Assembly: GCF_003201775.1 (NCBI RefSeq)
Contig: NZ_QJJZ01000012.1
Location: 1-64,000 of the forward strand
DNA: 64,000 nt
Source: Arenibacter sp. ARW7G5Y1
GTDB lineage: Bacteria > Bacteroidota > Bacteroidia > Flavobacteriales > Flavobacteriaceae
Direction of reading: 5' to 3'
Part shown: piece by piece, positions 1,096 to 36,225 of the stretch
Layout: every line of letters begins with the position of its first letter
How positions within the stretch are numbered: position 1 is the first letter of the stretch
The notes under the pieces: model-generated
What the model saw: only the letters and a program-made list of their open reading frames with translations
The model's database searches: none
What the model was told of the DNA's origin: nothing
Translations under genes and position numbers: made by a program

Positions 1096-1157
1096 CAAAA
1101 ATAGATGATAACAACAAGGAAATTATCGCATAAATTAGCAAGTCATCATACTATTTT
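1096..1157 (-). promoter_or_regulatory. Composite regulon promoter, copy 1 (DapA-family gene)
   Basis: On the minus strand AAAATAGTATG (1157-1147) is followed by 6 nt and TGCTAA (1140-1135). After 31 nt comes a perfect -7 box, TATTTTTG (1103-1096, TAnnTTTG). The start codon is 20 nt further on. Six other copies with identical spacing occur in the window. Confidence 0.8.
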
Positions 1158-1343
1158 ACTTCCTAAATAATCAGGGAGGGGGGCTTATTTCACCCAGGCC
1201 ATTATAGTATATTCCCTGTGCTAAAAAATAAACAAATATCATGTTGATATTTTATAGACTACCACCTATTTTTCATAAAAGATACCGCCATAGTAGGTGC
1301 TCGGGTTTCCCTTTGCATGTTGAACAAAGTAACTAGGGGGCAT

Positions 1344-1377
1344 TAAAAGAAAAACCCCACCAAAAACGGAGGGGTTT
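1344..1377 (-). terminator. Intrinsic terminator downstream of aminopeptidase P
   Basis: On the minus strand arms 1377-1368 and 1361-1352 form a 10-bp stem with one mismatch and a 6-nt loop, followed by a T-rich run. It ends the DPP-IV/PepP transcript 64 nt after the pepP stop. Confidence 0.75.
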
Positions 1378-1441
1378 GTTCAATCTTGGTATCGTACCGG
1401 ATCCTGGATTCCCGAGACACAAATATCTCTAAATTGAACCC

Positions 1442-2842
1442 TTAGAGCCGAGTCTTGGAAATTCTAAAATCTTCTATTTCCATTGAGGTAGTAGGGAGTT
1501 TGGCCCCTAACAAACGGCTACCATTTTTGGTTATAAGGAAATCATCTTCCACACGGATTCCACCAAAGCTTTTGTATTCTTCCAATTTATCATAATTGAC
1601 AAATTCGAAGTATTTATTTTCACTCTTTCTAAGTTCTATAAGCTCTGGGATAAAGTAAATTCCTGGTTCTACGGTCAGGACCATTCCCTCTTCCAAGGCC
1701 CTCCCCAGGCGAAGGGATTTAAACCCAAAATCCTTGCTTTGCTGAATTTCATTGGTATATCCAACATATTGTTCTCCCAAATTCTCCATATCATGGACAT
1801 CCAATCCCATCATATGTCCCAATCCACACTGAAAAAACAAAGTATGGGCGCCAGCCTCCACCGCCTTGTCCGCATCTCCTTTCATTAGTCCCAGTTCCAT
1901 TAAGCCCACAACTATATCTTTACAGGCAGCAAGATGCACATTTCTAAATAACTGGTTGGGCTTAAGCATACCCACCGCAGTTTTATAGGAGCTATAGACA
2001 ATATCATAAATTTCTTTCTGCTTAACACTAAATGTCATATTAACAGGAAAAGTCCGTGTAAGGTCCCCGGCATATCCCGAAAAGTTTTCCGCACCACAGT
2101 CGCAAAGGACCATGTCTCCCTCTTTAAGTAGATTTCCCCTGTAGTGATTATGAAGAATTTGTCCATCAATAGTTACTATGGAAGGAAATGAGGTGTTATT
2201 TCCGTTGGCCATTGCAATATTCTGAACCGCCCCGAAAAGATCCGCTTCGGTCATTCCTGCTTCAGCGATCTCCATGGCCTTATACTGCATTTCTACAGTT
2301 GTATTTACCGCTTTTTCAATTTCTTCTATTTCGGCAGTAGACTTTATAGACCTCAGCTTTACCACGGCCTTTATCAAATTGGTAGAAATCTTTTTTGATA
2401 CCTCGGTAGCCGATAATTTGAACAATTCAGATAATTTCAAAACATGTTCGGGACGATAAGGCGGCAAATAATGGATCTGCCTCCCTTTGGCAATGGCATC
2501 CCCTACATAGCCCTCAAGACTATTAGCTGGATTTACAACATGGACCCCCACCTTTTGGGCCTGTTCTTCCAGAGATTCAATAGGCCCCGTAAAGACAATA
2601 TCATCAATGGATAAATTATCTCCAAAAACAATCTCCTTGTTTTCATCCAAATCCATTATAGCATTCAATCCAGGTATTTGAAGTCCAAAGAAATAAATAA
2701 AGGAACTATCCTGCCTGTATGGATAGGTATTGTGTTTAAAGTTTATGCCACTTTCGTCATTTCCTAGAAAAAGAACCAATCCATCGCCCAGCAATTCCTT
2801 TAACTTTTCCCTTCTAGTTACATATTCCTGCTTTGCAAACAT
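1442..2842 (-). CDS. Xaa-Pro aminopeptidase (aminopeptidase P, family M24B), cytoplasmic
   Basis: A 466-residue M24 peptidase with an N-terminal AMP_N domain (about 1-140) and a C-terminal pita-bread domain. All five metal ligands of the dinuclear site can be placed: the two Asp in CDCGAE and AGDLTR, His in GLGHMMGLDVHD, Glu in TVEPGIYF and Glu in IRVEDDF. It removes the N-terminal residue from peptides with proline at position 2. There is no signal peptide. It lies 85 nt downstream of the DPP-IV-like gene on the same strand with no terminator between them, so the two are probably cotranscribed from the promoter at 5251-5312. A second, secreted aminopeptidase P sits at 16353-17825, so proline-containing peptides can be processed in both compartments. 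Length fits the family (E. coli PepP is slightly shorter). Confidence 0.93.
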   Translation of the reverse strand: MFAKQEYVTRREKLKELLGDGLVLFLGNDESGINFKHNTYPYRQDSSFIYFFGLQIPGLNAIMDLDENKEIVFGDNLSIDDIVFTGPIESLEEQAQKVGVHVVNPANSLEGYVGDAIAKGRQIHYLPPYRPEHVLKLSELFKLSATEVSKKISTNLIKAVVKLRSIKSTAEIEEIEKAVNTTVEMQYKAMEIAEAGMTEADLFGAVQNIAMANGNNTSFPSIVTIDGQILHNHYRGNLLKEGDMVLCDCGAENFSGYAGDLTRTFPVNMTFSVKQKEIYDIVYSSYKTAVGMLKPNQLFRNVHLAACKDIVVGLMELGLMKGDADKAVEAGAHTLFFQCGLGHMMGLDVHDMENLGEQYVGYTNEIQQSKDFGFKSLRLGRALEEGMVLTVEPGIYFIPELIELRKSENKYFEFVNYDKLEEYKSFGGIRVEDDFLITKNGSRLLGAKLPTTSMEIEDFRISKTRL

Positions 2843-2927
2843 ATATTTGATGATTTATACCGAAAAAAAATAATTCCATTGAGGATACTGATGTTATCCA
2901 ATAATAATTAGCAATAAACGCTTTAAC

Positions 2928-5165
2928 TTATTTACCACCGGCCGGCAAGTTCTTTTTCCAAAAAACTTCCATTGTTTCCCTTAGGTGGTACGAGGTATTT
3001 TCCCGTTCGTTTATTGAATGCGCCCTCATGGGATAAGACATCATATTAAACATCTTATTGTGTTCTATCAATTTATTGACCAACATCTCAAAACTCTGAT
3101 AATGTACGTTATCGTCTGCGGTACCGTGTATGATCATTAAATTTCCTTCCAAGTGCTGCGCGAAATTAATTGGAGAGCCATCGTGGTACCCTTTGGCATT
3201 ATCCTCCAACAATCCCATATATCTCTCTTGGTAGGTAGCATCATAAAGTCTTTGGTCGGAAACGAAGGAAACGGCCAAACCTGAAGAATAGATCTCCGGA
3301 TACCTAAACATACAGTTCAGTGTCATTTGGCCACCACCACTCCAACCCCAAATACCAACTCTGGACGGGTCCAAGAAATTATAGGTATCCAATATTTTTT
3401 TAGCCGCTTTGCTCTGGTCCTCAGAAGCCAGAATCCCTATTTGCCCATAAATGGATTTGCGCCATTTATTACCTCTAGGAGTTTTAGTTCCACGATTGTC
3501 CACACTCATTACAATATACCCCTGCTGGGCCATATACTGATCCCAAAGGCTACCCCCACCCCAATTGTCCTGAACGGTGGCACCTGCAGGCTCTCCATAA
3601 ACATAGAACAACAAAGGATATTTTTTTGTAGCATCAAAATCCTTCGGCTTAATCATCCAGGCATCCAATACCTCATCACCAATGTCTACCTTTACAAACT
3701 CTTTGGGATTCAGTTCCAAAGCATCAAATTTGGCCTTTAGCTCTTTGTTATCCTCCAAAATTCTCCTTTGTTTATGATTGGGAAGACTTATCAGGGAATA
3801 TACGGGAGGGGTAACCGCATTCTGAAACACTTGGATTCCCCATTTGGCATCATTGGATATTTGATAAGAGCTCTGCCCAGCATTTGAGCTAGGGGTAATC
3901 CTTTCGGCTTCCCCTTTTCCATCTATACGGCTCCTATACAAATATCTTTGGGTGAAATTGTCAGGGGAAGCGATATAATAAACATACCCTCCCTTTGGAT
4001 CAATACAATTTATCTCCACCACATCAAACTCCCCTTTTGTAATGGGCTGGACAACACTGCCGTCCCTTGAGACCTTGTAAAGGTGCAACCACCCATCCCT
4101 TTCACTGGACCAAGTAAAGTACTTTTCATTATCCAACCAGCGTACGTCGTCATGAATATCCAAAAAGGCATCATCCTTTTCCGTTAGGATATTAACTAGG
4201 TCCATTGTCTGGATATCCCCAATATAAACCTTATTGGTATTTTGTCTACGATTTAGCTGCTGAATCATTACCTCATTGGAATTGGGAATAAAATCCATTC
4301 TTGCCAAATAGTTGTTCTTTGGATCACCTGGAACCTTGAACCATTTTGAAGTACCATTTTCCACAGATACCACCCCCACTTTTACGGTTGAAAGCTCAGT
4401 CCCTACCTTGGGATAAGGCATTGGGATAGGTTTGGAGTATATGGAATCTACATTGTTGATCATGTAAAAGGTCCCTACATCCTTAGTATCCGATTGCCAA
4501 TAGGCTATATGTTTGCCATCAGGGCTCCACCTGAAGCCATCCCTACAATTTAATTCCTCTTCATAGACCCAATCAAAAGTACCATTTACAATATTATCGC
4601 CCCCATCCTTGGTAAGCTGATCTATCTTATGGTCTTCAAGATTTTCCGAATATATATTCAATTCGCTCACATAAGCCACTTTGGAAGCGTCCGGAGAAAA
4701 TTTCGCAAACATCAAGGTCGCGGATGGTAAGGACTGTCCCAATCTTGCCAATTTATTGGTCTTAAGATCCAACACCCAATAATCGCCCCTTGTATGATAC
4801 CTCCAAACTTTACGCGTATTGGTAAAAAGAAGCAGCTTGTTGTTGTCCAGCGACCATTGGTAATCCGAAATGGTAATAGGTTTATTTTCTCCCTTGGGAA
4901 TTAATTGGGCTGCAGAGACCAAAACCGACCTTGCCCCACTTTTTGCATCATATTTAACAATATCCCTTCCTCCGATTTCTTTGTTGGACTCCAGGGTAGA
5001 ATATCCTTTGTTGTCCTTCATCCAACGAACTGGACCAAACCCCTTTTGACCGTAAACATTGTTTTTGTAAATATCATTTAACTGTAAGCTAGAACCATTC
5101 TGTGCCAGACTGGTACCGATAAAAAACAAAAAGCATAGTATGCTTCCCAAAATCCCTTTTTTCAT
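2928..5165 (-). CDS. Dipeptidyl peptidase IV-like prolyl peptidase (S9B), exported
   Basis: A 745-residue protein with a signal peptide (about 1-21, ending in SLAQ), an N-terminal beta-propeller (DPPIV_N) and a C-terminal alpha/beta hydrolase domain. The catalytic triad is visible: Ser609 in GWSGGG, Asp684 in HGTADDNVH and His716 in MRAHSI. The N-terminal Glu pair that anchors the substrate amino group in DPP-IV is present in DWVYEEE near residues 200-202. It should cleave Xaa-Pro (or Xaa-Ala) dipeptides from periplasmic peptides. It is the first gene of a two-gene unit with aminopeptidase P and carries copy 2 of the regulon promoter. Together the two enzymes would dismantle proline-rich peptides, which fits a Pro-rich or hydroxyproline-rich glycoprotein substrate (inference). 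Confidence 0.93.
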   Translation of the reverse strand: MKKGILGSILCFLFFIGTSLAQNGSSLQLNDIYKNNVYGQKGFGPVRWMKDNKGYSTLESNKEIGGRDIVKYDAKSGARSVLVSAAQLIPKGENKPITISDYQWSLDNNKLLLFTNTRKVWRYHTRGDYWVLDLKTNKLARLGQSLPSATLMFAKFSPDASKVAYVSELNIYSENLEDHKIDQLTKDGGDNIVNGTFDWVYEEELNCRDGFRWSPDGKHIAYWQSDTKDVGTFYMINNVDSIYSKPIPMPYPKVGTELSTVKVGVVSVENGTSKWFKVPGDPKNNYLARMDFIPNSNEVMIQQLNRRQNTNKVYIGDIQTMDLVNILTEKDDAFLDIHDDVRWLDNEKYFTWSSERDGWLHLYKVSRDGSVVQPITKGEFDVVEINCIDPKGGYVYYIASPDNFTQRYLYRSRIDGKGEAERITPSSNAGQSSYQISNDAKWGIQVFQNAVTPPVYSLISLPNHKQRRILEDNKELKAKFDALELNPKEFVKVDIGDEVLDAWMIKPKDFDATKKYPLLFYVYGEPAGATVQDNWGGGSLWDQYMAQQGYIVMSVDNRGTKTPRGNKWRKSIYGQIGILASEDQSKAAKKILDTYNFLDPSRVGIWGWSGGGQMTLNCMFRYPEIYSSGLAVSFVSDQRLYDATYQERYMGLLEDNAKGYHDGSPINFAQHLEGNLMIIHGTADDNVHYQSFEMLVNKLIEHNKMFNMMSYPMRAHSINERENTSYHLRETMEVFWKKNLPAGGK

Positions 5166-5250
5166 AACTTTTATTATTTCTAAATACTATTCTTCATAAG
5201 GCCAAACCAAAAGTAACACTTCCAAGAAAATCCTACATATTTCGGCACAA

Positions 5251-5312
5251 CAATATTACAAAGTCCCATGGCAGTGGATATTGCCCAAATTAGCAAATAG
5301 TGATACTATTTT
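5251..5312 (-). promoter_or_regulatory. Composite regulon promoter, copy 2 (DPP-IV/PepP unit)
   Basis: On the minus strand AAAATAGTATC (5312-5302), 6 nt, TGCTAA (5295-5290), then 31 nt to TAATATTG (5258-5251). The start codon is 86 nt downstream of the -7 box. Spacing is identical to the other six copies. Confidence 0.8.
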
Positions 5313-5390
5313 AGAAAACGATTTTAGAAAGCTACAAAACACCCTTGGTATTATAGGGATAAGCAACACGATCGGCCAAAGCGTCCACCG

Positions 5391-6263
5391 CTACCCCTGG
5401 TCATTATTTATATTGGACCGATATTCCATAGGGGACATCCCTGTGTATTTTTTAAAATGCTTATGAAAGTTTGATAAATTATTGAATCCACTGCCATATC
5501 CACAGTCCGAAATACTATAATTCTCATTATGGAGCAGTTCACAGGCACTTCCAATTCTCACCTCGGCCAAATATTGGGAGAAGGTTTTCTTGGTTTTGGA
5601 TTTAAAAAACCTACAGAAGCCCGTAGGCGACATATGGGCCAAATCGGCTATTTCGGAAAGTGTAATCAATTCCCTATAATTTTCCTTTACAAATGCACAG
5701 ATCTTTGTAATTTTAGGGTTATTGTCAACACCTATCTTAACGGGCGCTGCCTTAGGTGATAATATCATCACGTTATTATCCCTGGATGCAACATTGAGCA
5801 ACTTTAAAAACAATAAAAATTTATTTAGACCGGTGCTAGTGGTCAGCTCTTCGATATAATCCGTTAAATACCTTGCACTATCCCTATTTACCTTAATCCC
5901 ATAGTGTGAGGATTCAATTAATTTATTTATCCTATAGGCTTCAGGCACATTTCGGAGGGATTCCTTTACTTTATCTTGATCAAAAAACAGAGAAATCGCT
6001 TTGGAACCACTATTGGAATTCCCAAAGGAATCTTTGTTGGTCTTTAAAGCATGGGGCAAATTTCTGCCAAAGAAATACACATCGCCCTTTTCATATGGAA
6101 CTACCTTGTCCGAGACAAAAAGAAATCCACTTCCCTCCTGTATCATGGTAATTTGAAATTCCTTGTGAAAATGAATCTGCTGATAAAACTTGTTTACATT
6201 CCACTTTTCCACCACTGGCGTACCGCTCTCTGGCAACAGGACATTATAAGGTTGTGCGTTCAT
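5391..6263 (-). CDS. AraC-family transcriptional regulator 1
   Basis: A 290-residue regulator with an N-terminal cupin-type effector domain (about 20-110; HFHKEFQITMIQEG and GDVYFFGRNLPH are typical) and a C-terminal double helix-turn-helix of the AraC/XylS type (about 190-285; SEIADLAHMSPTGFCRFFK, then GYGSGFNNLSNFHKHFK). It lies 41 nt downstream of a second AraC gene with the same architecture; the two probably form a bicistronic operon. It sits next to the DPP-IV promoter and is an obvious candidate activator for the seven-copy element in this window. AraC proteins bind two half-sites about two helical turns apart, which suits AATAGTAT and TGCTAA. Ligand unknown; a sugar or short glycopeptide is plausible. 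Confidence 0.9.
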   Translation of the reverse strand: MNAQPYNVLLPESGTPVVEKWNVNKFYQQIHFHKEFQITMIQEGSGFLFVSDKVVPYEKGDVYFFGRNLPHALKTNKDSFGNSNSGSKAISLFFDQDKVKESLRNVPEAYRINKLIESSHYGIKVNRDSARYLTDYIEELTTSTGLNKFLLFLKLLNVASRDNNVMILSPKAAPVKIGVDNNPKITKICAFVKENYRELITLSEIADLAHMSPTGFCRFFKSKTKKTFSQYLAEVRIGSACELLHNENYSISDCGYGSGFNNLSNFHKHFKKYTGMSPMEYRSNINNDQG

Positions 6264-6304
6264 AATACTTTGGATTTTAAAAATTCTCAGTAAAAAATTC
6301 CTTT

Positions 6305-7186: not shown

Positions 7187-7406
7187 AAAATCACTTTTTA
7201 ATATTAAATTAAAAAGTTAATTTACAAAAAAAGTCTTAACTTCAGCTATAATATTACATGAAAATATGTCAGTAAATTAATAGATTTGAACAATAGATAA
7301 ATAACTACGACACCATTTAGCAAATTCCAATTTTAGGATTTGCAAACTAAGAATACAAAAAAGCAAATAATTCCAATTCAGATTAAGATCTTATATAATT
7401 GAATCC

Positions 7407-8981: not shown

Positions 8982-9191
8982 TCCAACACAGCTACCATCT
9001 TTGGAAGACAACGCTTGTCCCATCATTTTTTCGCTACAAAATTGCACAGGGCTTTACTTTTTATAATATTCAAAGTTTAGCCCCTATAATTTTTGTATAA
9101 AACAAATATTGGAAGACCCCTATTGCTATTACCGCAAATACAATATTCAATCCAATTTTTCTCCTCCCCACACACTTCTTAACCTTTTGTT

Positions 9192-9253
9192 AATATTGTA
9201 TATCAATATGCTAAGATACCGCCCATTTCACTGCAACTAAATATTTAATTTTA
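9192..9253 (+). promoter_or_regulatory. Composite regulon promoter, copy 3 (SusC1 operon)
   Basis: AATATTGTATA (9192-9202, two mismatches to consensus), 6 nt, TGCTAA (9209-9214), then 31 nt to TAATTTTA (9246-9253). The start codon lies about 245 nt downstream, implying a long 5' leader. Confidence 0.75.
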
Positions 9254-9258
9254 CCACA

Positions 9259-9279
9259 TTATTAATTTAGGTTTAATAA
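9259..9279 (+). repeat. Inverted repeat TTATTAA-N7-TTAATAA at the predicted SusC1 transcript start
   Basis: A perfect 7-bp dyad with 7-nt spacer, starting 44 nt after the TGCTAA box and 5 nt after the -7 box. The same dyad is found at exactly the same position at SusC2 and GH95-2. Confidence 0.7.
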
Positions 9280-9498
9280 GATTCTTATTATACAAACTGC
9301 AACATGGAGCAATTGGTTATATTTTGTTCCCACCATTGAAAGCAACAAAATCTTTCAACTTAAAGGGATAATAATTCCAGACCGCTTAACATTGGCCCAA
9401 GTATCATACTGAAAACCTATTGAACCGGAAAAATGCAATTACGCAGAACACCTAACGGACAACAACAGAACATTATCTAACATTAAACATTTTATGGT

Positions 9499-12400
9499 AT
9501 GACAAAAAAAACCAAGCTTAGGCAAGAATTACCCCGGAAGTTTAAATTTGACATGGTCATAAAGCCATCCTTAACACTTATGTTAAGTGCCATGGTGGCC
9601 TTTCCCAGCGGTAAGAATTACGCCTCGGAAACAAGAGCCCTTAATGAGGCAACAAGCCCAACGGCCACGACCTATTCCAATAAACTGTTTACCCCCCAAC
9701 AACAAATTACCGGGGTGGTTTTAGACAACAATGGACTTCCCTTACCTGGAGCCAACATATTGGAAAAAGGAACTACCAATGGCACCCAAACTGATTTTGA
9801 CGGGGAATTCTCTATTTCAGTATCCAGTCCAAACGCGGTATTGATCGTTTCCTATTTAGGATTCGTCAATAAGGAAATAAGTGTATCCGGACAATCCAAT
9901 ATTTCCGTAACCTTGGAGGAAGATGCCTCCCAATTGGAGGAAGTAGTAGTTACGGCATTGGGTATAACAAGGGAGAAAAAGGCCCTTGGATATGCAGTTC
10001 AGGAGCTTTCCGGTGACGACATTAAAAACACCTCCGAAACCAATGTGATCAATGCTTTGGCAGGAAAATCGGCGGGGGTTTTAATAAACAATTCAAATGG
10101 TAACGTAGGAGCTTCTTCCAGAATAACAATTCGGGGAAACCAGTCGCTTACCGGTAACAACCAACCGCTTTTCGTTGTAGATGGAATACCAATAGACAAC
10201 ACCATCGTATCCAGTACTCGAGGGGGTTATGACTTTACCGATATGGGTAACGGTGCGGCGGACATCAACCCGTCCGATATTGCTGAAATGACTATTCTAA
10301 AAGGTGGAAACGCAGCTGCACTTTACGGTTCCAGAGGAGCCAATGGAGTTGTACTGATTACCACCAAATCTGGAAAAGGACAAGGATTCTCAGTAGCCGT
10401 AGAGAACACAGTTACCCTCAGCAGTCCATTTTTACTTCCTGATTATCAAAATGAATACGGACAAGGTGGTGGACAACAATTTTGGTATAAAGACGGTCTG
10501 AACGGAGGTAGTAATGACGGTGTGGATGAAAGTTTTGGTCCCCGATTGGATTATACGGTCCAGGCCGAAGATATTGCGCCTGGCGGAAAATTATACTGGG
10601 CAGTAGAGGCCGGTTTTCCACAAACCCCTGGGGAAATTCTTTCCCTACCACAATTTAACTCGCCCGTAGACCCTGTGACCGGAGAGCGTACACCTACTCC
10701 TTGGGTCTCCCATCCCAATAACATAAAGAACTTTTATGAAACCGGGATTACCAGGATTACCAATGTTGCCCTTACCAACGGTGGCGATTGGGGCAATATG
10801 CGTCTTTCCATAACCAACTCGGATCAAACCGGTATGGTACCGAACACCAATCAGGTTAAGAATACCATTAACTTTTCCGGCAATACCAATTTAACGGATA
10901 AGCTTTCATTTGAAGCCAAGGCTTCCTATATCAATTCCAATGGCAATTTGAACGGGGCAGGTTATACCTTCAACAACATCGGGATGCAGACTATATGGAC
11001 GGCAAGACAAGTGGATTGGGACTATATGAAAAACAACATAGAAAACCCCGATGGAACCCAAATTAGCTGGATCAACAGATGGCATAACAACCCTTATTGG
11101 ATACAGTATAAAAACCTAAACCCACAGACCAAAAACAGACTTATTGGTTCAAGCTCCCTTAAATATCAGTTCAACGACTGGTTAAGCCTATCTACGAGAG
11201 CGGGTATAGATTATTCCAATGAACAAGTTGAGCTTATAAGGGCTTATTACGGTAACAATGACCCAGAAGGAAGATACGGTGTAAGCAATTACTTTAGACA
11301 GGAAATAAATGCAGATGTATTGCTCTCTGCCGTTAAGAACATCACAGATGACTTGTCATTGAACGCCAACTTGGGTGCCAATATCATGAACAACCAATAT
11401 AGACTACAAACTTCATCCGTAGATAGATTGGTAGTACCCAACATCTATTCCTTGTCCAATGCCAAGGAAACACCTACTACCACTTATTACCAAAGGGAAA
11501 AGGAAATTCAAAGTGCCTTCGCCTCCCTCTCTCTTGGTTATAAGAGTCAGGTATATTTGGATTTGACCGGTAGAAATGATTGGTCCTCTACTTTACCAAG
11601 TAGTAACAACTCTTACTTCTACCCCTCAGCTACTACGAGTTGGATATTCTCCGAAACCTTTAAAACAGATAGAAACATACTTAGTTTTGGAAAAGTTCGT
11701 CTAAGTATCGCGCAAGTTGGAAACGATACGGATCCGTATAGATTGGATGCCACGTATAGTGCCGCTACACCTTATGGAGAAAACCCAGCCTTTAGTCTCA
11801 GCAGCACAATGCCCCCTGCCGATCTGGTAAATGAGCTTATTACCTCCAAAGAACTTGGATTGGATCTGAAGTTCTTCAACAATAGATTGGGAATTGATGT
11901 AACTCTTTATAACTCGGTTGCAAAAAATCAAATTTTGAGCGCTCCCGTATCTCCAACCTCTGGATATAACACACAAATTATCAATGCCGGTCAGGTAGAC
12001 AACAAGGGAGTTGAAGTGATTTTGAACGGAACCCCGATACAGACCAAAGATTTCTCATGGGACGTAACTGCCAATTACGGCACAAACACAAGTGAAATTA
12101 TTGCTTTAAATGGCGACATCAAACGCTTGGAACTCTTCAAAACGGAAGGCAATCAGATCAATGTAGTAGCAGATGTTGGTGGTTCCTATGGTGATATGTG
12201 GGGGAAAGGTTTTGTATACCACGAAAATGGAAAACCTATAGTGGATGCCAGTGGCGTACCCTTGACCAGTGAAATAAAAAAATTGGGGAACCTAATGCCG
12301 GATTGGATAGGTGGACTTAATAATTCCTTCAATTATAAGAATATCAATTTAAGTGTACTTATAGATGCCAAAATAGGTGGTGATGTATATTCCAGGACCA

Positions 12401-17825: not shown

Positions 17826-17838
17826 CCTATAATGAACA

Positions 17839-21207: not shown

Positions 21208-21269
21208 GAAATAGTATAGTATTGTGCCAATAAGTTATGCTTGTTTTATATCTTATAATTATAATATTG
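21208..21269 (+). promoter_or_regulatory. Composite regulon promoter, copy 4 (M60-like peptidase)
   Basis: GAAATAGTATA (21208-21218, one mismatch), 6 nt, TGCCAA (21225-21230, one mismatch), then 31 nt to TAATATTG (21262-21269). The M60-like start codon is 94 nt downstream of the -7 box. Confidence 0.75.
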
Positions 21270-26821: not shown

Positions 26822-26865
26822 AATGGTCCTTTGGGAAATTATCCCTGAAGGACCATTTTCATTTT
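26822..26865 (+). terminator. Intrinsic terminator after GH95-1
   Basis: Arms 26822-26831 and 26848-26857 form a perfect 10-bp stem (AATGGTCCTT/AAGGACCATT), extended inside by GGG/CCC, followed by TTCATTTT. Confidence 0.8.
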
Positions 26866-27152: not shown

Positions 27153-27214
27153 AAAATAGTACAGTTTAAAGCTAATATCCATACCTAATACCCAATTTAA
27201 TTTGGATAATTTGA
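27153..27214 (+). promoter_or_regulatory. Composite regulon promoter, copy 5 (cytochrome/propeller gene)
   Basis: AAAATAGTACA (27153-27163), 6 nt, AGCTAA (27170-27175), then 31 nt to TAATTTGA (27207-27214). The box is nearly identical to copy 7. The start codon is about 146 nt downstream of the -7 box. Confidence 0.75.
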
Positions 27215-27360
27215 GCGTATTACCAAACCTATCTAACAACCTACAGCACACTTGAAGAAATTACAAAAGTTTTTGATCGTCCATAAGGCTCGGAAAACTG
27301 GGATTTTCCTTAAGATATAATTGTATAAAGAAGTATAAATTAACACACATTGATTTTCAT

Positions 27361-30300
27361 ATGAAAAGTAAAATTCTATCTATTATTTCGTTGTTCATTG
27401 CGTTCAGTACCTGTCTTAACTGTTCAACCGAAAGGGAATATCAAGGCATTTGGGATTATGAAATTCATATACCACAACAGGATATACATACGGGCACTTT
27501 TAAACTTCAAAAAAACGGCGATAACTATATAGGAAGCATGGTTTCTAAGGAATTAAAGGAAACCTCTATCCATAATATAACTATTGAAGGCAGTTCCATG
27601 ACCATGGACATTGTGCTTAACAATAAAACAATTACGATAAACGGTGAATTTAAGGAGAATTTATTTTCAGGTACCGGTACATATAATGGAGAAGAAGTTA
27701 GGTTAACCGCAACAAGGTCTGTTGACCAAGAAGGTCCAATTGACCAATCCCAGATAGCTTACGTCCTAGACGATTCCGATTTAAACGACTATGAAAAGGA
27801 CCTTGATCACCAAGGAATGATCGAAGCCTTCGATGGAAAGGCCCTTAAACGCGGTAGTCTAATTTATAACTCGAACTGTATAAATTGTCACGGTGTGCCA
27901 GAAGTGGAAGGATCTATTCCCAACTCCCTTAAATTTTGGGCACAACCCTTCAAGTACGGCAACGACCCTTATTCAATGTACCAAACAATAACCAAGGGAG
28001 CTGGATTAATGCCGCCACAAATGGCTTTAACTCCTCAGGAGAAGTATGATGTTATCGCATTTATCAGGGAAAATTATGTCAAGGACCAAAACGAAACTGC
28101 TTATTTTAATGTTGATTCCGAGTATTTGTCCAGCTTGCCCAAAGGAACCTCAAAAGGTCCCGAGTCCAAACCATATCATCCCTGGTCCGATATGGATTAT
28201 GGCAATTTTTTAATCAACACCTATGAATTGGCAGATTCTGAAACCGGAATTAAACGATTTCATTCGCCCGGACCACGACCCTACGCAGACGAAAATTATT
28301 TAAAGAACAATTTTGCCTATAAAGGAATAGCGGTCCGACTGGACGACGGTCCTGGCGGAGTTTCCAAAGGAAATGCCTGGATGATATTCGACCACGACCT
28401 GATGCGCGTGGCAGGTGGCTGGTCCGGAGACGGCTTTATAGACTGGGAAGGAATTCTATTGAACGACAAACATGAAACCTACCCTAGAACCATTGGTAAA
28501 CTACATTTTGAAACCCCGGTAGGTCCGGCATGGGCAAATCCAGATACCGGATCATTTCAAGACCCCCGTTTCAAGGCCCGCGATGGTCGAAGATTTGGCC
28601 CATTGCCAAAAGCATGGTCCCATTATAAAGGAATTTACCACAGTGGTAAAAATATCATTATCTCCTACACCGTAGGAAAAGCCAACATTCTGGAACGGCT
28701 TGGTATGGAGCAATCCAGTGGGCAAATAATCTTTACTAGAACATTGAACATTGACCCCTCAGATAAAGTATTGCGAATGAGGGTGGCACCTCAAAATGTA
28801 AAAGTAAAAATTAAAGGAGAAGGAGCAACCCTTATAAATTCCAATGGCTTCGTTGTCCTTGAAGTCCATAAAGGCGCAGCTGCCAATATCAAATTGTTCA
28901 TAGCAGGAGCAGATGTAAGGGATTTGGCCAAGACAGTTCAAAATGCCCCAGGCCCTGAAAACCTGGATAAATATCTCCACGGAGGGGAGCCGCATTACAA
29001 CCAAGAAGTTGTTACTGCCATAGTCAAGGGGAAAGAAGAGGGACCAATAGCAATGGACCAACTTACACCTCCCTACGAAAACCCCTGGGACAGCCGATTA
29101 AAATTGAGTGGAATCGATTTTCTTGAGGATGCCAATATTGGAATTTTATGTACCACCGATGGCGACATATGGTCAGTAAAAGGGCTTACGGACAATACTG
29201 ATAAACTGTATTGGAAAAGAATTGCCTCTGGCCTTTTTCAACCTCTTGGCATCAAAGTAGTGGAAGACGAAATATATGTCATTTGCAGGGACCAACTTGT
29301 AAAATTGAACGATCTTAACGGGGATGGGGAAACGGATTTTTACGAGAATTTCAATAATGATCACCAGGTGACCGATCATTTTCACGAATTTGCCATGGGA
29401 TTGCAGACAGACCAAGAAGGCAACTTTTATTACGCCAAAAGTGGTCGTCATGCCAGGGAAGCCCTCGTTCCCCAACACGGCACTTTACTTAAAGTTAGTA
29501 AAGACGGTACAAAGACGGACATCATCGCCAATGGCTTTAGGGCTGCAAACGGTGTATGTATAAATCCTGACGGTAGTTTTATAGTCACCGATCAGCAGGG
29601 TTTCTGGAATCCTATGAACCGTATAAATTGGGTAGAAGGAAAAGGAAAATTTTATGGAAACATCTGGGGATACAATCCACCCAAAGACACTACAAGATTG
29701 GGGATGGAACAGCCAATGGCTTGGATAGACATGGAGTTTGACAGGTCGCCCTCAGAACTGCTATGGGTAGACAGCAAAAAATGGGGACCCTTGGATAAAG
29801 GATTGTTAAGCTTTTCATATGGATACGGTAAGATCCAACTGGTTCTCCATGAAAAGGTTATGGGACAAAGACAGGCAGGAGTAGTGGACCTTCCGGGAGT
29901 AAAGTTTCTTACCGGGGTCATGAGAGGTAGGTTCAATCCTCAGGATGGGGATTTATATGCGTGTGGAATGTCGGCCTGGGGAACTTCCCAAAATATGAAA
30001 GGGGGCGAATTCTATAGGCTTCGTTATACAGGAAAACCACTGTCGGTACCTATTGCCCTAAGTGCCGAAAAAAACGGTATGGTATTAACGTTCGCTTCCA
30101 AATTGGATGCCGAAAAAACCGAAGTCGGTTCTAATTTCGAAGTGCAAACTTGGGAACTACTTAGGAGCCATAAATACGGTTCCAAGCGATACAATATTAA
30201 AACGCTCGATATTTCGAAGGTGAGGGTAACCGAGGATGGAAGAAAAGTAAAACTCCTGTTACCCGACATTGCCCCGGTAGATATCATGAAAATTACGTAC

Positions 30301-30387
30301 AAGGTTACGGATTCCCATGGCAATGAATTAAAGGGAAAAATACAGAACACTATTCATCATCTAAATGAAGTAACAATTAAGGAGTAG
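27361..30387 (+). CDS. Large lipoprotein with c-type cytochrome motif and beta-propeller (DUF6797-like)
   Basis: A 1008-residue protein with a lipobox at about Cys21 (STCLNCS). Regions in order: a small beta-rich domain (about 25-120); a single-heme cytochrome c-like domain with Cys173-Ile-Asn-Cys176-His177 and a possible distal Met in GAGLMPPQMALTPQEKYDV; then a long DUF6797-like region (about 255-560). A C-terminal six-bladed propeller-like part follows (about 575-900), with GDIWSVKGLTD, DLNGDGETDFYENF, NGVCINPDGSFIVTDQQG and GEFYRLRYTG. Related multidomain proteins are frequent in Planctomycetes/Verrucomicrobia; no reaction is established to my knowledge. A periplasmic sugar or aldehyde oxidoreductase passing electrons to the heme is a reasonable guess. 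It is monocistronic, with its own copy of the regulon promoter, so it is functionally tied to this locus. Confidence 0.75.
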   Translation: MKSKILSIISLFIAFSTCLNCSTEREYQGIWDYEIHIPQQDIHTGTFKLQKNGDNYIGSMVSKELKETSIHNITIEGSSMTMDIVLNNKTITINGEFKENLFSGTGTYNGEEVRLTATRSVDQEGPIDQSQIAYVLDDSDLNDYEKDLDHQGMIEAFDGKALKRGSLIYNSNCINCHGVPEVEGSIPNSLKFWAQPFKYGNDPYSMYQTITKGAGLMPPQMALTPQEKYDVIAFIRENYVKDQNETAYFNVDSEYLSSLPKGTSKGPESKPYHPWSDMDYGNFLINTYELADSETGIKRFHSPGPRPYADENYLKNNFAYKGIAVRLDDGPGGVSKGNAWMIFDHDLMRVAGGWSGDGFIDWEGILLNDKHETYPRTIGKLHFETPVGPAWANPDTGSFQDPRFKARDGRRFGPLPKAWSHYKGIYHSGKNIIISYTVGKANILERLGMEQSSGQIIFTRTLNIDPSDKVLRMRVAPQNVKVKIKGEGATLINSNGFVVLEVHKGAAANIKLFIAGADVRDLAKTVQNAPGPENLDKYLHGGEPHYNQEVVTAIVKGKEEGPIAMDQLTPPYENPWDSRLKLSGIDFLEDANIGILCTTDGDIWSVKGLTDNTDKLYWKRIASGLFQPLGIKVVEDEIYVICRDQLVKLNDLNGDGETDFYENFNNDHQVTDHFHEFAMGLQTDQEGNFYYAKSGRHAREALVPQHGTLLKVSKDGTKTDIIANGFRAANGVCINPDGSFIVTDQQGFWNPMNRINWVEGKGKFYGNIWGYNPPKDTTRLGMEQPMAWIDMEFDRSPSELLWVDSKKWGPLDKGLLSFSYGYGKIQLVLHEKVMGQRQAGVVDLPGVKFLTGVMRGRFNPQDGDLYACGMSAWGTSQNMKGGEFYRLRYTGKPLSVPIALSAEKNGMVLTFASKLDAEKTEVGSNFEVQTWELLRSHKYGSKRYNIKTLDISKVRVTEDGRKVKLLLPDIAPVDIMKITYKVTDSHGNELKGKIQNTIHHLNEVTIKE

Positions 30388-30412
30388 TGCGTACTGCTCC
30401 TTAATTACCTCT
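30375..30412 (+). terminator. Hairpin overlapping the stop codon of the cytochrome/propeller gene
   Basis: A perfect 10-bp stem (30375-30384 with 30397-30406) with a 12-nt loop containing a further short pair. The downstream sequence is T-rich only in part (ATTACCTCTTTT), so termination efficiency is uncertain. Confidence 0.45.
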
Positions 30413-30660
30413 TTTGACCAAATCACTTGCGCCTCATCGACTGGCTTGCACAATACTTATTAAATATAATATCATAAGATATCACAATAACTGTACAAAT
30501 AAGTATTTTTAATAATTATAAAAGTCTTATCATAGGTATATACAAAATTTAATCAACAGAAAGTTAAAAAAACAAGATGATTTTTCATATATAATTATAA
30601 TTCAGTAAATTATAAGCATATTTAATCATTTATGTACTATCTTGATTGAACGCACAAGTT

Positions 30661-30722
30661 AAAATAGTATAGTCTTTTGCTAAATACAAACAACTTCATC
30701 CCCAACTATTTAACTAATTTTA
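30661..30722 (+). promoter_or_regulatory. Composite regulon promoter, copy 6 (SusC2/SusD2)
   Basis: AAAATAGTATA (30661-30671, exact consensus), 6 nt, TGCTAA (30678-30683, exact), then 31 nt to TAATTTTA (30715-30722). The start codon is 30 nt downstream, so the leader is short here. Confidence 0.85.
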
Positions 30723-30727
30723 TAACA

Positions 30728-30748
30728 TTATTAAGATAACTTTAATAA
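30728..30748 (+). repeat. Inverted repeat TTATTAA-N7-TTAATAA immediately upstream of SusC2
   Basis: The same 7-7-7 dyad as at 9259-9279 and 36231-36251, again 44 nt after the TGCTAA box. Here it ends 3 nt before the SusC2 ATG, so as RNA it would overlap the ribosome-binding region. Confidence 0.7.
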
Positions 30749-30751
30749 CTT

Positions 30752-33700
30752 ATGAAAAACAGATTTAAACTCAACGCGATGTCATGGTTACTGCTACTAG
30801 GGATCGTACTTTTCACTCCAGGCAACGCAAATGCCCAAGACCTGGATATTACCGGAACTGTCAGTGACGAAAACAGTAATCCGCTACCGGGCGTAACAGT
30901 ATTGATCAAGGATACCTCCACAGGTACCACAACAGATTTTGATGGTCTTTACACCATTAAAGCATCTCCAAACGACGTTTTAAGTTTTAGCTATTTAGGG
31001 TACATCACCCAAGAGATACCCGTAGGCACAAAAACAAGTATAAACTTAAGTCTGGAACCTGACACCCAGGCCTTGGACGAAGTGGTAGTGACCGCTCTTG
31101 GTATTAGCCGGGACAAGCAAACTCTAGGCTATGCCGTACAAGAATTGGGCGGCGATAAACTGACCACAACTCCTGAAGCCAATGTGATCAACTCCCTCTC
31201 CGGGAAAATTGCCGGTATACAGGTTACAAATGGAGGAAGTACCGTTGGATCATCTTCCAGGATAGTAATTCGTGGAAATTCATCATTTTCAGGAAATCAG
31301 CCGCTTTTTATTGTGGATGGCACCCCAATAGACAACTCATCACCCAACCTTGCAGGAGCAGGTGGTGTGGACTGGGGAAACACCGCGTCGGATATAGACC
31401 CCAACAACATTGAATCCGTATCAGTACTAAAAGGAGCCAACGCGTCTGCCCTATACGGGAGTCGTGCTGCAAATGGGGTAATCATAATTACAACAAAAAA
31501 AGGAGGTAAAAGCGGTAAAGCCCTAGGGGTTAACTTTAGTTCCTCCGTGGTTATGGACAAGGCCTCTTACTTCCCAAATCTTCAAAATGAATACGGTGGG
31601 GGTCGAGATGGAAGCGAATTTATCTATAACAGATACAATACGAACAACAATACTAATTTGAGCTATAACGATTATGCCAAACAATTTTCATACAATTATG
31701 TGAATGGAAATGGAGGGGGAATAAACGACTCGTACCCAACAAACTGGGGACCAAGATTGGATGCCGGCTTATTATTGGACCAATGGTCCACTGGCCCCAA
31801 CAGCCCTTGGATTTCCAGACCGAACAACATTAAGGAATGGTTCGACACCGGTGTTACCATACAAAACAATGTTTCCGTAACGGCTAACGGCGAAAAATCC
31901 TCAGGGAGAATTTCGTACACCAATGTAGACACCCAAGGTATGATAGACAACACGGGGCAAAAAGAAAACGTTCTTTCTGCCAATGTCAACCTAACCCCTT
32001 CCGATAAGTTAACGGCTTCCGTGAATTTCAACTATGTAAAAAAAGAGAGTGACAACCTTCCTGCCAATGGATATAGATGGGCTGATATATTTGCCTGGTT
32101 ACAAAGGGATTTCCCCACCCAATACGCAAAGGACCTATTTTACGAAAAAGGCAATGACGAATATATGTTCAACGCGGACAACCCTTTCTACAGTCTTAGA
32201 AACACCAATGCTTTTGACAGGGAAAGAATTTATGGCAACGTTTCAATGTCCTACAAAATAAATGACTGGCTTACAGCCAATGGCCAAGTGGGAATTGATT
32301 TTTACAATGAGATAAGAAAAAGTATAACCCAGGCAGGAACAACCCGGAATAAAAGATTGGGACTTGGCGGGCAATTCAGTGAATCCCACATCAACAAAAA
32401 GGAAACAAATACAGATGTTACCTTAAATTTCGACAAGACCTTCAACGATTTTCGCGTAGACGGATTGATCGGAGCCAACAAAAGAACCAATACATACAAT
32501 TCCATTAGCCTAAGTGCATCCGACCTTACCGTACCGGATCTGTACACCATTTCCAACGTTAAGGGCACACCTGGAACCGGAATGTATGAAAGTCAGTACG
32601 AAACAAACAGTGCCTACTTTGCAGTGAATGGATCGTATAAGAAGATTTTCTACCTAGGAATTACCGGCCGAAATGATTGGAGCTCAACCCTTCCTCAAGA
32701 GAGTTGGTCCTATTTTTACCCATCCGTTAGTGCTGGTTTTGACGTAACCGAAGCCTTGTCCCTAAAATCGGACATACTATCCTACGCCAAACTTAGAGGT
32801 GGCTGGGCCAAAGTTGGTGGCGACACCAGCCCCTATCAGTTAAATACGACGTATTCGGCAGGGACGTTTAGCGGAGTATCCGTTTTCACTCCTTCACGCA
32901 CCCTACCACCAGCAGGATTAAAACCGGAAGAAACCACTTCCTATGAAATAGGAGCCGATATACGTTTTTGGAAAAATCGTATAGCTTTAGACTTTACCTA
33001 TTATGCACAAACAACAGTTAACCAAATTCTATCCGTTACCACTTCTACCACCACAGGATACAATGGAATGCTGTTAAATGCAGGTGAAATCGAGAACAAA
33101 GGGGTAGAACTTATGTTGTCAGCAGATTTATTCCAAAACCCAAAAGGTTTCAATTGGGATGTTGTGGTTAACTGGGCCAAAAATAAGAGTATAGTAAATT
33201 CCCTGTACGGCAATTTGGAATCCTATCAGATTTCCAGCGGTTTTGGAGGCGTAAAGACACTAGGTATTCCAGGCGAAGAATGGGGTGTTCTTTGGGGCCT
33301 ACCATTTGTTAGGGATAACAATGGAAAAATCGTAGTAAATGCCAACGGTATCCCCACAACTACCAACGCGGCCGTAAAACTAGGCAACGTAACACCCGAC
33401 TGGACAGGTGGTATAACCAACACATTTGGCTACAAAGGGGTTAGCCTAAGCTTTTTGGTAGATGCACAAATTGGAGGTGACATGTTCAGTACAACAGCAT
33501 GGCATTCATACCCTACAGGCGCCTACGAAAACACAGTAAAGAACAACGTAAGGGAAACAGGATTAATTGTTGACGGAGTATTTGAAGATGGGACACCCAA
33601 CAACATCCGTGTCTCGGCTCAAGATTATTACAATGGTTCTTGGGTATGGAACAATCACGAGTATTCCATCTTGGACGCTACCTATGTAAAACTAAGGGAA

Positions 33701-33928
33701 CTGGCCATTGGATATAATTTCAATGTTTCTAAAATCAATTCCATTTCCAAATTAAACCTTTCCCTGGTTGGAAGAAACTTAGCCATTCTTTACAGGGACA
33801 AGGACACCAAAGATTACGGAATTGATCCTGAAGTAGGTTTTGGCGGCGGAGAAGCCGGTATAGGTTATGAGAATTTCCAAATACCCACCGCAAGAAGCTA
33901 CGGATTTAAATTAACAGCTAGTTTCTAA
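30752..33928 (+). CDS. SusC2: SusC/RagA-type TonB-dependent outer-membrane transporter
   Basis: A 1058-residue SusC homologue with signal peptide (about 1-28, ...GNANAQ). It has a CarboxypepD_reg-like domain (about 33-110; ITGTVSDENSNPLPGV, YLGYITQEIPV), a plug with VVVTALGISRDKQTLGYAVQ and a beta barrel ending in YGFKLTASF. It is of the same subtype as SusC1 (same plug start, no STN domain) and differs from SusC3. SusD2 follows after 17 nt. Promoter copy 6 is a perfect match to the element. With SusC1 it gives the AraC regulon two parallel importers, presumably for two size classes or decorations of the same substrate (inference). Confidence 0.93.
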   Translation: MKNRFKLNAMSWLLLLGIVLFTPGNANAQDLDITGTVSDENSNPLPGVTVLIKDTSTGTTTDFDGLYTIKASPNDVLSFSYLGYITQEIPVGTKTSINLSLEPDTQALDEVVVTALGISRDKQTLGYAVQELGGDKLTTTPEANVINSLSGKIAGIQVTNGGSTVGSSSRIVIRGNSSFSGNQPLFIVDGTPIDNSSPNLAGAGGVDWGNTASDIDPNNIESVSVLKGANASALYGSRAANGVIIITTKKGGKSGKALGVNFSSSVVMDKASYFPNLQNEYGGGRDGSEFIYNRYNTNNNTNLSYNDYAKQFSYNYVNGNGGGINDSYPTNWGPRLDAGLLLDQWSTGPNSPWISRPNNIKEWFDTGVTIQNNVSVTANGEKSSGRISYTNVDTQGMIDNTGQKENVLSANVNLTPSDKLTASVNFNYVKKESDNLPANGYRWADIFAWLQRDFPTQYAKDLFYEKGNDEYMFNADNPFYSLRNTNAFDRERIYGNVSMSYKINDWLTANGQVGIDFYNEIRKSITQAGTTRNKRLGLGGQFSESHINKKETNTDVTLNFDKTFNDFRVDGLIGANKRTNTYNSISLSASDLTVPDLYTISNVKGTPGTGMYESQYETNSAYFAVNGSYKKIFYLGITGRNDWSSTLPQESWSYFYPSVSAGFDVTEALSLKSDILSYAKLRGGWAKVGGDTSPYQLNTTYSAGTFSGVSVFTPSRTLPPAGLKPEETTSYEIGADIRFWKNRIALDFTYYAQTTVNQILSVTTSTTTGYNGMLLNAGEIENKGVELMLSADLFQNPKGFNWDVVVNWAKNKSIVNSLYGNLESYQISSGFGGVKTLGIPGEEWGVLWGLPFVRDNNGKIVVNANGIPTTTNAAVKLGNVTPDWTGGITNTFGYKGVSLSFLVDAQIGGDMFSTTAWHSYPTGAYENTVKNNVRETGLIVDGVFEDGTPNNIRVSAQDYYNGSWVWNNHEYSILDATYVKLRELAIGYNFNVSKINSISKLNLSLVGRNLAILYRDKDTKDYGIDPEVGFGGGEAGIGYENFQIPTARSYGFKLTASF

Positions 33929-33945
33929 TTTCAAAAAAAAATATC

Positions 33946-35424: not shown

Positions 35425-35434
35425 AAGGCCAAAC

Positions 35435-35617
35435 CTCAGGGCAGGCCTGCCTTTGTCGGCAGACAGGCCTGTCTGCCGACAAAGGCAGGCCCGGAACCCA
35501 ATAATAGGAATCGACCCTAGGGTCGAGGTATTGAACCTAGATCCCGCCGAAAATGGCGGGATTAGTTCAACTTTCAATTTTAAGTGCGTCTTACCGACTT
35601 CTCAAAATTGAGTTTCA
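35435..35617. repeat. Palindrome-rich dispersed repeat, copy R2
   Basis: A 183-bp second copy of the element at 24104-24264. Its first block is a perfect 46-bp palindrome (two 23-nt arms, about 35445-35490), followed by TCGACCCTAGGGTCGA, a CCCGCC/GGCGGG hairpin and the TCAATTTT...AAAATTGA end. It lies 10 nt after the SusD2 stop. The length difference from R1 lies in the big palindrome. Confidence 0.88.
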
Positions 35618-35661
35618 CTAATAAACCATAAAATAAAGATAGAGTCGATGACTTGACAAGG

Positions 35662-35690
35662 GGCAGCATATTTATGCTGCCTTTTTTTTG
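35662..35690 (+). terminator. Intrinsic terminator of the SusC2/SusD2 unit
   Basis: A 9-bp perfect stem (GGCAGCATA/TATGCTGCC) with a 2-nt loop, followed by eight T. Confidence 0.85.
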
Positions 35691-36163
35691 TTCCATCCAG
35701 TGGTTCAAACGAAGCTTCCAAAACCCATATATTCAATTTGGATACACACGATCATGACCTATAAGCCCACAAATTATAAAAAAAGTCCCATCACTATAAC
35801 GCAATTGCCCCCTTCCCCTGAACCTTGAATAAAATACCCTATATAAAAAAATCCCCTTAGACACCCATACATTAAAGCCAAATTTTCAATTGATAGTACC
35901 CTATGGAATCAATAATACCGAACCCCATCATTTTAACTAACAGATCAACCACTTTACAAAGAGAATTAAACTGCTATACGAATTGACCAAAAACTCAATT
36001 TAAAATACTTATTTATATTATATTAATAAGGATCACACCAAAAAATGTCCAATTCGGAACATAAAAAAGAAATAACTACCTAAATAACTAAAATACAGCA
36101 TATTAAAAAATATCTACAAACTTATCACATTCATATTTTTCTGCAAAAACTCCAGATATTGTT

Positions 36164-36225
36164 AAAATAGTATAGATTAAAGCTAATATTAATTGCAATC
36201 AATCATTTATAAATCATTAGATTTA
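36164..36225 (+). promoter_or_regulatory. Composite regulon promoter, copy 7 (GH95-2/L-galactose operon)
   Basis: AAAATAGTATA (36164-36174, exact), 6 nt, AGCTAA (36181-36186), then 31 nt to TAGATTTA (36218-36225). The start codon at 36505 is 280 nt away, leaving a long leader. Confidence 0.8.

Follow-up and report, generated by a model that had tools for sequence, protein, structure and literature searches.

A conserved, position-fixed candidate promoter element suited to an AraC-type activator recurs across a peptidase, SusC and GH95 locus of Arenibacter

Results

The window analysed here, the first 64 kb of a 200-kb contig (NZ_QJJZ01000012.1) in the 5.73-Mb genome of Arenibacter sp. ARW7G5Y1 (G000), carries a catabolic locus in which a 62-nt composite element, a 23-nt box followed after 31 nt by a -7 box, occurs seven times before genes of very different kinds. 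The locus encodes a DapA-family protein, two aminopeptidase-P-like proteins, a dipeptidyl peptidase IV (DPP-IV), two AraC proteins, a serine dehydratase, two SusC/SusD pairs, sulfatases, M1-like and M60-like peptidases, two GH95 proteins, a cytochrome/DUF6797 protein, a zinc dehydrogenase, an aldo-keto reductase and a symporter. It thus combines an M60-like peptidase (PF17291/PF13402) with SusC/SusD and glycosidases (GH95), the combination that marks a glycoprotein-utilisation locus. Orthologous regions were compared in Arenibacter troitsensis (G013), A. palladensis (G014), A. aquaticus (G015), A. algicola (G016), A. sp. P308M17 (G011) and an uncultured member of the Flavobacteriaceae from another genus (G067). 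The seven elements, and an eighth, weaker match, are as follows.

1096..1157, minus strand: predicted composite promoter of the DapA-family gene (177-1076); orthologous site in G013, G014 and G016
5251..5312, minus strand: predicted composite promoter of the DPP-IV gene dpp4 (2928-5165), likely also serving pepP1 (1442-2842); retained in 6/6 relatives, including G067 of another genus
9192..9253, plus strand: predicted composite promoter of susC1 (9499-12852); full repeat, with GTTAA from 9189; retained in G013-G016
21208..21269, plus strand: predicted composite promoter of the M60-like peptidase gene, m60 (21363-23984); retained in G013, G014, G016 and at both G015 m60 copies
27153..27214, plus strand: predicted composite promoter of the cytochrome/DUF6797 gene (27361-30387); retained in G014-G016, not found at the G011 orthologue
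30661..30722, plus strand: predicted composite promoter of susC2 (30752-33928); full repeat, with GTTAA from 30658; retained in G011 (weak), G014, G015 and G067
36164..36225, plus strand: predicted composite promoter of gh95b (36442-38967); full repeat, with GTTAA from 36161; retained in G013-G016, not found at the GH95 genes of G011 and G067
7228..7287, plus strand: weak composite-like match (3 mismatches) between araC2 and sdaA, the eighth match in the window

A preliminary description of the window had placed seven elements at these coordinates and strands, and all seven are present there; leave-one-out matrices of the 23-nt box put every site among the seven best, at rank 4 or 7, of the 127,956 positions in the window, and with the full matrix the seven scored 23.2-30.0 bits, the next place in the window reaching 11.0, about 12 bits lower. 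The composite pattern (23-nt box, 31 nt, TANNTTT, with up to 3 mismatches) matched eight times in the window, against 0.08 expected from shuffles. The fixed distance of 31 nt claimed in that description was confirmed, as the summed TANNTTT match of the seven sites reached 32 of 35 letters at offset 31, compared with a mean of 13.5 (standard deviation 4.1) over offsets 5-79. All seven elements lie between large open reading frames (ORFs) and face a start codon, at a measured distance of 20-246 nt rather than the 20-280 nt first given. The box letters needed correction: the core is AAAATAGTAT-N8-GCTAA, and both the 11th base (A) and the T of TGCTAA, formerly counted as part of the box, vary. Each -7 box is within two mismatches of TAnnTTTG, as had been described, with a perfect copy only at 1096(-) and two differing letters in the box of the 27153 element. 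The araC2-sdaA intergenic region (7187-7406), where the weak eighth match lies, is strongly conserved in the genus, including TAGATTTG.

The six orthologous regions were scanned with the 23-nt matrix alone at more than 12 bits, the -7 box being no selection criterion. Among 37 core matches, 29 lay before copies of the target genes, so that 29 of 32 such copies carry the element, and 8 were dropped; two of these are the m60 element read backwards (antisense, in G014 and G016), with TACTATT, 4/5 letters, at offset 31, and the other six have no such -7 box at that offset. Together with the seven window sites this gave 36 sites in 7 genomes, all of which have TA at offset 31 and GCTAA starting 36 nt before the -7 box, and which MAFFT aligned free of gaps. 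Both m60 copies in A. aquaticus have an element of their own. Over 27 orthologous pairs within the genus, compared ungapped so that indels lower the flank values, identity was 0.89 for AAAATAGTAT, 0.83 for the N8, 0.99 for GCTAA and 0.94 for the -7 box, compared with 0.62 (-20..-1) and 0.36 (-40..-21) in the upstream flank and, beyond the element, with 0.66, 0.49 and 0.40 in three consecutive blocks of 30 nt. The boxes and their spacing are retained before dpp4 and susC2 of G067, where the spacer is clearly different.

A profile of the 36 sites was then searched against 18 Arenibacter genomes. It gave 34 matches with E < 1e-3, comprising 33 of the 34 Arenibacter training sites (the G011 susC2 site had E 0.057) and one new site, and all of them in the six genomes that bear AraC1, one of the two AraC proteins of the locus. 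The best match in the other 12 genomes had E 0.0069, similar to the partial off-locus matches in the AraC1-bearing genomes (0.0046 in G000 and 0.0058 in G013). These data strongly support a shared, conserved and position-fixed promoter element of a kind that would suit an AraC-type activator.

The two candidate regulators lie side by side within the locus.

5391..6263, minus strand: AraC1, AraC DNA-binding domain (HTH_18, 7.3e-21) and cupin-like N-terminus (near the Pfam cutoff), 290 aa
6305..7186, minus strand: AraC2, AraC DNA-binding domain (HTH_18, 2.2e-16) and cupin N-terminus (Cupin_2 above cutoff), 293 aa

The double helix-turn-helix domain PF12833 scored 74.7 bits in AraC1 and 60.3 bits in AraC2, with a gathering cutoff of 33.6. 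A search of 149 genomes (E 1e-60) found AraC1 orthologues in 5 of 17 congeners, at 85-95% identity, and one at 53% in G067; among the 18 Arenibacter genomes AraC1 occurs only in the six with element matches at E < 1e-3. AraC2 adjoins AraC1 in the window and in all six related loci, so that the pair accompanies the locus in 7/7 genomes. The stretches SPTGFCRFFK and NNLSNFH, which we take to be the recognition helices of AraC1, are identical in seven AraC1 orthologues. The corresponding stretches of AraC2 differ between G000 and G067, although these two genomes have one and the same DNA motif, which favours AraC1 over AraC2. AraC1, perhaps together with AraC2, is thus the likely regulator of the elements, as judged from gene content and protein sequence.

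We consider it improbable that the elements are bound by a hybrid two-component system (HTCS) protein encoded elsewhere, with AraC1 and AraC2 having other targets. HTCS sites are reported to be 21-bp direct repeats (PMC3878776), and the genome has open frames of 1,344-1,413 aa that match the DNA-binding part of AraC1. Neither AraC1 nor AraC2 has the HTCS architecture, in which a periplasmic sensor, a histidine kinase and a receiver are fused to the AraC domain, and no HTCS was found among the 32 large ORFs of the window. By contrast, the AraC pair and the elements occur together in all seven loci, which come from two genera, and no strong element match was found where the pair is absent.

Returning to AraC1 as the favoured regulator, we compared the two parts of its presumed site with each other. 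The stretch of the profile from column -2 to column 10 resembled columns 19..31 most closely when shifted by 21, which ranked first among 143 offsets in one direction and among 127 in the other. In this 13-column test no inverted pairing scored above 0.478, compared with 0.553 for the direct 21-bp shift. An exact distal GYTAA is present at 5/5 susC1, 5/5 gh95b, 3/5 susC2 and 2/21 other sites. Several results weigh against this period: its margin is small (0.553, with 0.443 and 0.522 for the next offsets), the distal GYTAA is exact in only 15/36 sites, 13 of them at susC1, susC2 and gh95b, and in a cruder two-box test offsets 50, 47 and 5 each suited the combined boxes more than 21 did, with one inverted pairing ahead of every direct one, even though GCTAA alone fits best at -21. 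The box might instead be an imperfect inverted repeat (TAG...CTA) for a symmetric dimer of another regulator family, for which the two-box scores speak (-4.4 for the combined boxes against their own reverse complement, -8.9 for the best direct shift). We regard this as very unlikely, given that the 13-column half-sites favour the direct shift. Repeats of 21 bp are moreover seen again at two further kinds of promoter described below, those of the hydroxyproline operons and of the C20 AraC gene, and this recurrence is the stronger support for a direct repeat, although inverted matches of 8-11 of 13 letters occur there as well. The reading that we prefer, with moderate confidence, is a direct repeat of 21-bp period that is complete at the susC1, susC2 and gh95b promoters and degenerate at the others. 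The nearest relative of the AraC1 DNA-binding domain in the PDB, 12aw, is an HTCS protein. What had been described as a single box of about 23 bp, two helical turns long, still suits an AraC-type activator, and would probably be better read as two tandem half-sites.

Since GCTAA starts 36 nt before the -7 box, the proximal half-site would reach the -33 region, as expected of a class II activator. The housekeeping promoter consensus of Bacteroidota combines a -7 TAnnTTTG with TTTG around -33, according to the promoter descriptions in PMC7366714. No TTTG box was found at a common position in the seven window spacers, a point weakened by the same source, in which the -33 motif is described as not found in Flavobacterium johnsoniae either.

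The same geometry occurs at other promoters. The one new profile match, in A. aquaticus, lies before a DapA-like gene 71% identical to that of the window, which heads an operon (L109:2017-6990) for the DapA-like protein, an aldehyde dehydrogenase, a 4-hydroxyproline epimerase (591 bits, cutoff 376) and an FAD oxidoreductase, with an AraC gene divergent from it; weaker matches precede two further SusC genes of that species. An epimerase gene like that of A. aquaticus is present in 17/18 Arenibacter genomes, and the promoters of five other hydroxyproline operons (G000, G004, G005, G013 and G014) were compared. Those of G000, G005, G013 and G014 read GTTAATATTNTCTC, then 21 bp on GCTAATAT, with TAAWTTTG 31 nt after GCTAA; G005 has this geometry yet lacks AraC1. 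In G004 the repeat is more divergent and the spacing can be read as the same. A second case, in G000, lies before an AraC gene.

C3:262805-262869 (L130:10805-10866, minus strand): predicted hydroxyproline operon promoter, different 3' box, 21-bp/31-nt geometry
C20:59905-59969 (L067:9405-9469, plus strand): predicted promoter of an AraC gene itself, same geometry; matching sequence in ten congeners, five of them context-checked

The pattern GYTAA-N16-GYTAA-N31-TANNTTTR has 34 exact matches in the 18 genomes, against 5 for the reversed pattern; by sequence likeness, 11 belong to this locus, 2 lie before SusC genes, 8 are of the hydroxyproline-operon type, 11 of the AraC-gene type and 2 are others. 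When the spacer was left free between 20 and 45 nt, with GTTAA first, 33 of 84 matches fell at 31 nt and at most 7 at any other value; as the control total was about the same (80), the peak at 31 and not the total is informative. The context was read for 6 of the 11 AraC-gene-type matches, and in 6/6 the first AraC start codon follows the -7 box by 10-25 nt. The presence of this geometry in front of the C20 AraC gene suggests that the gene is autoregulated; its protein has an HTH_18 match of 77.3 bits and a cupin match just under the cutoff. One geometry is therefore common to three target sets that differ in their 3' boxes, and in one of these sets it lies before an AraC gene itself.

Two further recurrent sequences were seen in the genus. 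A near-identical 75-nt stretch (GTTAACCGCCCATAAAGAGG...) in several genomes (G007:C17:12377, G001:C55:7080, G012:C17:657 and G010:C63:16748) is probably part of a mobile element. Four congeners (G013:C5:494238, G014:C21:41037, G016:C14:9312 and G006:C45:16548), one of which is without AraC1, have AAATAGTAT-N8-GATAA/GGTAA with TAAATTG at the -7 place, perhaps another AraC target.

Three of the seven window promoters have an additional inverted repeat.

9258..9279, no strand: inverted repeat ATTATTAA-N6-TTTAATAA, starting 4 nt after the susC1 -7 box
30727..30748, no strand: inverted repeat ATTATTAA-N6-TTTAATAA, starting 4 nt after the susC2 -7 box
36230..36251, no strand: inverted repeat ATTATTAA-N6-ATTAATAA, starting 4 nt after the gh95b -7 box

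RTTATTAA-N6-WTTAATAA occurs exactly only at 9258, 30727 and 36230 in the 5.73-Mb genome, at the same three promoters that have a complete GTTAA half-site. With one mismatch there were 25 matches in this genome (both strands) and 9 in the control, so only the exact repeat is specific. Exact ATTATTAA-N6-WTTAATAA occupies 15 distinct places in the 18 genomes, 10 of them at promoters of the susC1, susC2 and gh95b types, 3 about 133-135 nt upstream of an element before an M64-peptidase gene (see below) and 2 elsewhere. The repeat consists of A and T only and sits at the expected start point; we lean towards reading it as an operator, and it may alternatively form a weak 5' mRNA hairpin, both readings being kept since its arms hardly vary among relatives.

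The preliminary description had also predicted a regulon elsewhere in the genome. At large this failed, and a genome-wide regulon was rejected as a candidate: the 23-mer with up to 2 mismatches had 8 off-window matches in the own genome against 4 in the reversed control, six of the eight lay inside ORFs, and none was accompanied by a suitable -7 box at offset 31. The other two, C4:217625 and C9:40236, are intergenic, the latter upstream of a gene for a fatty-acid desaturase; they are also the strongest profile matches that this genome has outside the locus, both of them partial (E 0.0046 and 0.0126). The composite pattern with up to 3 mismatches gave 14 off-window matches against 5 in the reversed control, a modest excess; of the 14, the C12:99864 site and the C20 promoter region were analysed in more detail. 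On a small scale the prediction held, with a conserved distal composite site at C12:99864-99923, 36 kb past the window, that has counterparts in G013, G014, G015 and G016, the last of them perfect (AAAATAGTATTGTAATCGGCTAA, 31 nt, TATTTTTG). The G000 site precedes a gene with an M64-peptidase domain, followed by sulfatase, SASA esterase and SusC genes, and the ORFs in the relatives begin alike; under the 36-site profile this site is weak (E 0.0096 in G016, 0.80 in G014). The operon head (L052:12666-15713) encodes about 1,015 aa with an IgA-peptidase M64 domain and an SprB repeat. No multi-copy version of the motif was found in the neighbourhoods of 12 other AraC paralogues, where single core matches reached at most 18.7 bits; in L059 a weak match stands with a -7-like box beside the AraC gene. 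The regulon would thus be mostly bound to the locus, with a few distal members.

DapA-family enzymes have a role in the hydroxyproline pathway. A reading of the window's DapA-like protein as a sugar aldolase was set aside: all its NCBIfam matches, dapA included, are below their cutoffs, and the hydroxyproline reading of the gene therefore rests on the A. aquaticus operon, which suggests that the protein acts in hydroxyproline catabolism. In G013, G014 and G016 the dapA gene stands without the other pathway genes behind it. Taken with the X-Pro peptidases of the locus, the A. aquaticus operon indicates that the substrate may be a sulfated, proline/hydroxyproline-rich glycoprotein. Next to the locus lies a further polysaccharide utilisation locus (PUL, 47486-62296) with two more GH95 genes, GH2, SusC/SusD, FecR and an extracytoplasmic function (ECF) sigma factor; no element there exceeds 11 bits, and it would be under separate control.

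Discussion

Combining these results, we propose, as the best and in our judgement a quite probable explanation, that the elements are class II AraC activator-dependent promoters with tandem 21-bp half-sites, served by AraC1 with or under AraC2. We infer that each element would be switched on by a cupin-type AraC regulator, most likely AraC1, that recognises a tandem pair of half-sites repeated every 21 bp: a distal one of roughly GTTAAAATAGTAT, and a proximal one that begins with GCTAA and adjoins the -33 region. The bound regulator would replace the missing -33 sigma contact, and polymerase would start from the TAnnTTTG-type -7 box 31 nt after GCTAA. One inducer would then turn on outer-membrane importers, GH95 glycosidases, glycoprotein and X-Pro peptidases and the DapA-family enzyme, a programme that would be aimed at a sulfated, Pro/Hyp-rich glycoprotein. 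At susC1, susC2 and gh95b the inverted repeat at the start point would add a second control, as an operator or a 5' mRNA hairpin.

Some observations count against this proposal. Three of the 32 target-gene copies in the relatives lack a site above 12 bits, namely the DUF6797 gene of G011 and the GH95 genes of G011 and G067, the orthology of these two GH95 genes being ambiguous between gh95a and gh95b; in the window itself, sulf1, pepP2 and gh95a are preceded by gaps of 141-328 nt without an element. The 31-nt spacer is fairly conserved within the genus (identity 0.67-0.78), that is, less conserved than the boxes and not free. The dpp4 gene also has the 6/18 distribution, so that the presence of AraC1 and the element is inseparable from that of the whole locus; the element hence belongs to the locus, and distribution alone does not single out the regulator. 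The presumed recognition helices of AraC2 are similar to those of AraC1, and AraC1 of G067 (L048:17255-18112) has lost the cupin His motif, its presumed recognition helices being unchanged. As AraC2 retains that motif, AraC2 may sense and AraC1 bind.

We give little credence to the idea that the elements are leftovers of promoter duplication alongside duplicated genes, without a shared regulator. The susC1, susC2 and gh95b promoters do share extra sequence in their inverted repeat, and each m60 copy of A. aquaticus has its own element; however, the genes behind the copies are unrelated, the boxes are more conserved than their flanks in the genus, and G067 retains them at the usual spacing around a different spacer. 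The window does encode an ECF sigma/anti-sigma pair (sigma/FecR, 60219-62296), which lies 24 kb away from its last element, yet recognition of the box by such a sigma factor can practically be set aside. This reading was ruled out on position, as the pair belongs to the element-free neighbouring PUL; the -7 boxes are, moreover, near TAnnTTTG, and a 31-nt gap is unfit for a -35/-10 pair.

Extending the AraC proposal to the other promoters, we tentatively suggest, at slightly less than even chances, that one rigid grammar serves several cupin-type AraC regulators: GYTAA 21 bp apart, 31 nt to the -7 box, and an exchangeable 3' box (AGTAT, YCTC or GACAC types) that would give each regulator its regulon. 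Genes would be recruited by a swap of this box. In the glycoprotein regulon the inverted repeat would act as a further gate for two importer genes and one GH95 gene, whose promoters are also the three with a complete GTTAA half-site. For stand-alone AraC regulators of marine Bacteroidota this would provide a promoter code that is fixed in its geometry and open to testing, and that can be looked for in genomes so as to assign regulons. It would also link the peptidase/sulfatase/GH95 locus, so far unstudied, with the catabolism of hydroxyproline, which suggests hydroxyproline-rich glycoproteins as a food source of Arenibacter.

At the araBAD promoter of Escherichia coli, AraC binds tandem half-sites 21 bp apart that abut a sigma-70 promoter, each made up of a TAGC box, which reads GCTA on the opposite strand, and another box roughly one helical turn from it. 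The present elements are reminiscent of this arrangement in their probable tandem 21-bp half-sites abutting the promoter and in the TAGC/GCTA box with another box about a turn from it, but differ in that the half-sites have the opposite orientation, no looping operator was identified here, and the E. coli promoter is a sigma-70 one. Predicted sites of Bacteroides HTCS regulators are direct repeats averaging 21 bp apart, read as sites for dimers of the AraC-type domain (Ravcheev et al. 2013, PMC3878776), and their regulons comprise several operons plus distant genes, the paralogues BT4178 and BT4182 having been proposed to share one motif (PMC3878776). The likeness lies in the probable direct repeat of about 21 bp, the multi-operon regulon and possibly two paralogous regulators, whereas the candidate here is a stand-alone AraC protein of 290 aa instead of a membrane hybrid sensor, and the elements have a fixed 31 nt to the -7 box, a feature not mentioned for HTCS sites in the relevant portions of that paper, together with an added inverted repeat.

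Closer in habitat, CgrA (ZGAL_3159) is an AraC-family positive regulator of the dispersed carrageenan regulon of Zobellia galactanivorans, with its sulfatase-rich cluster (PMC5698469). It shares with our case a marine flavobacterial host, an AraC-family regulator and a sulfatase-rich catabolic cluster, but its substrate is a polysaccharide, and the passages on CgrA in that report give no binding site. In gene content, the PUL BT4240-50 of B. thetaiotaomicron is comparable, as it too unites an M60-like glycoprotein peptidase, SusCD and glycosidases in one locus and is induced by mucin (PMC11992087). It is predicted to be controlled by an ECF sigma/anti-sigma pair and acts on mucin O-glycans, and no hydroxyproline genes are mentioned in the account of it given there. 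The joint control of peptidases, importers and glycosidases noted in the preliminary description thus stands as a shared element, while its description as unusual does not, such a set being coherent. Neither this motif nor a 31-nt rule was found in the titles and abstract openings among the matches listed in a literature search, and the PUL regulons found in print are mostly gut HTCS and SusR systems. The Arenibacter elements look like a well-supported example of a familiar kind of switch, probably worked by an AraC-type activator; what stands out in them is the rigid layout that several target sets have in common, together with the additional inverted repeat.

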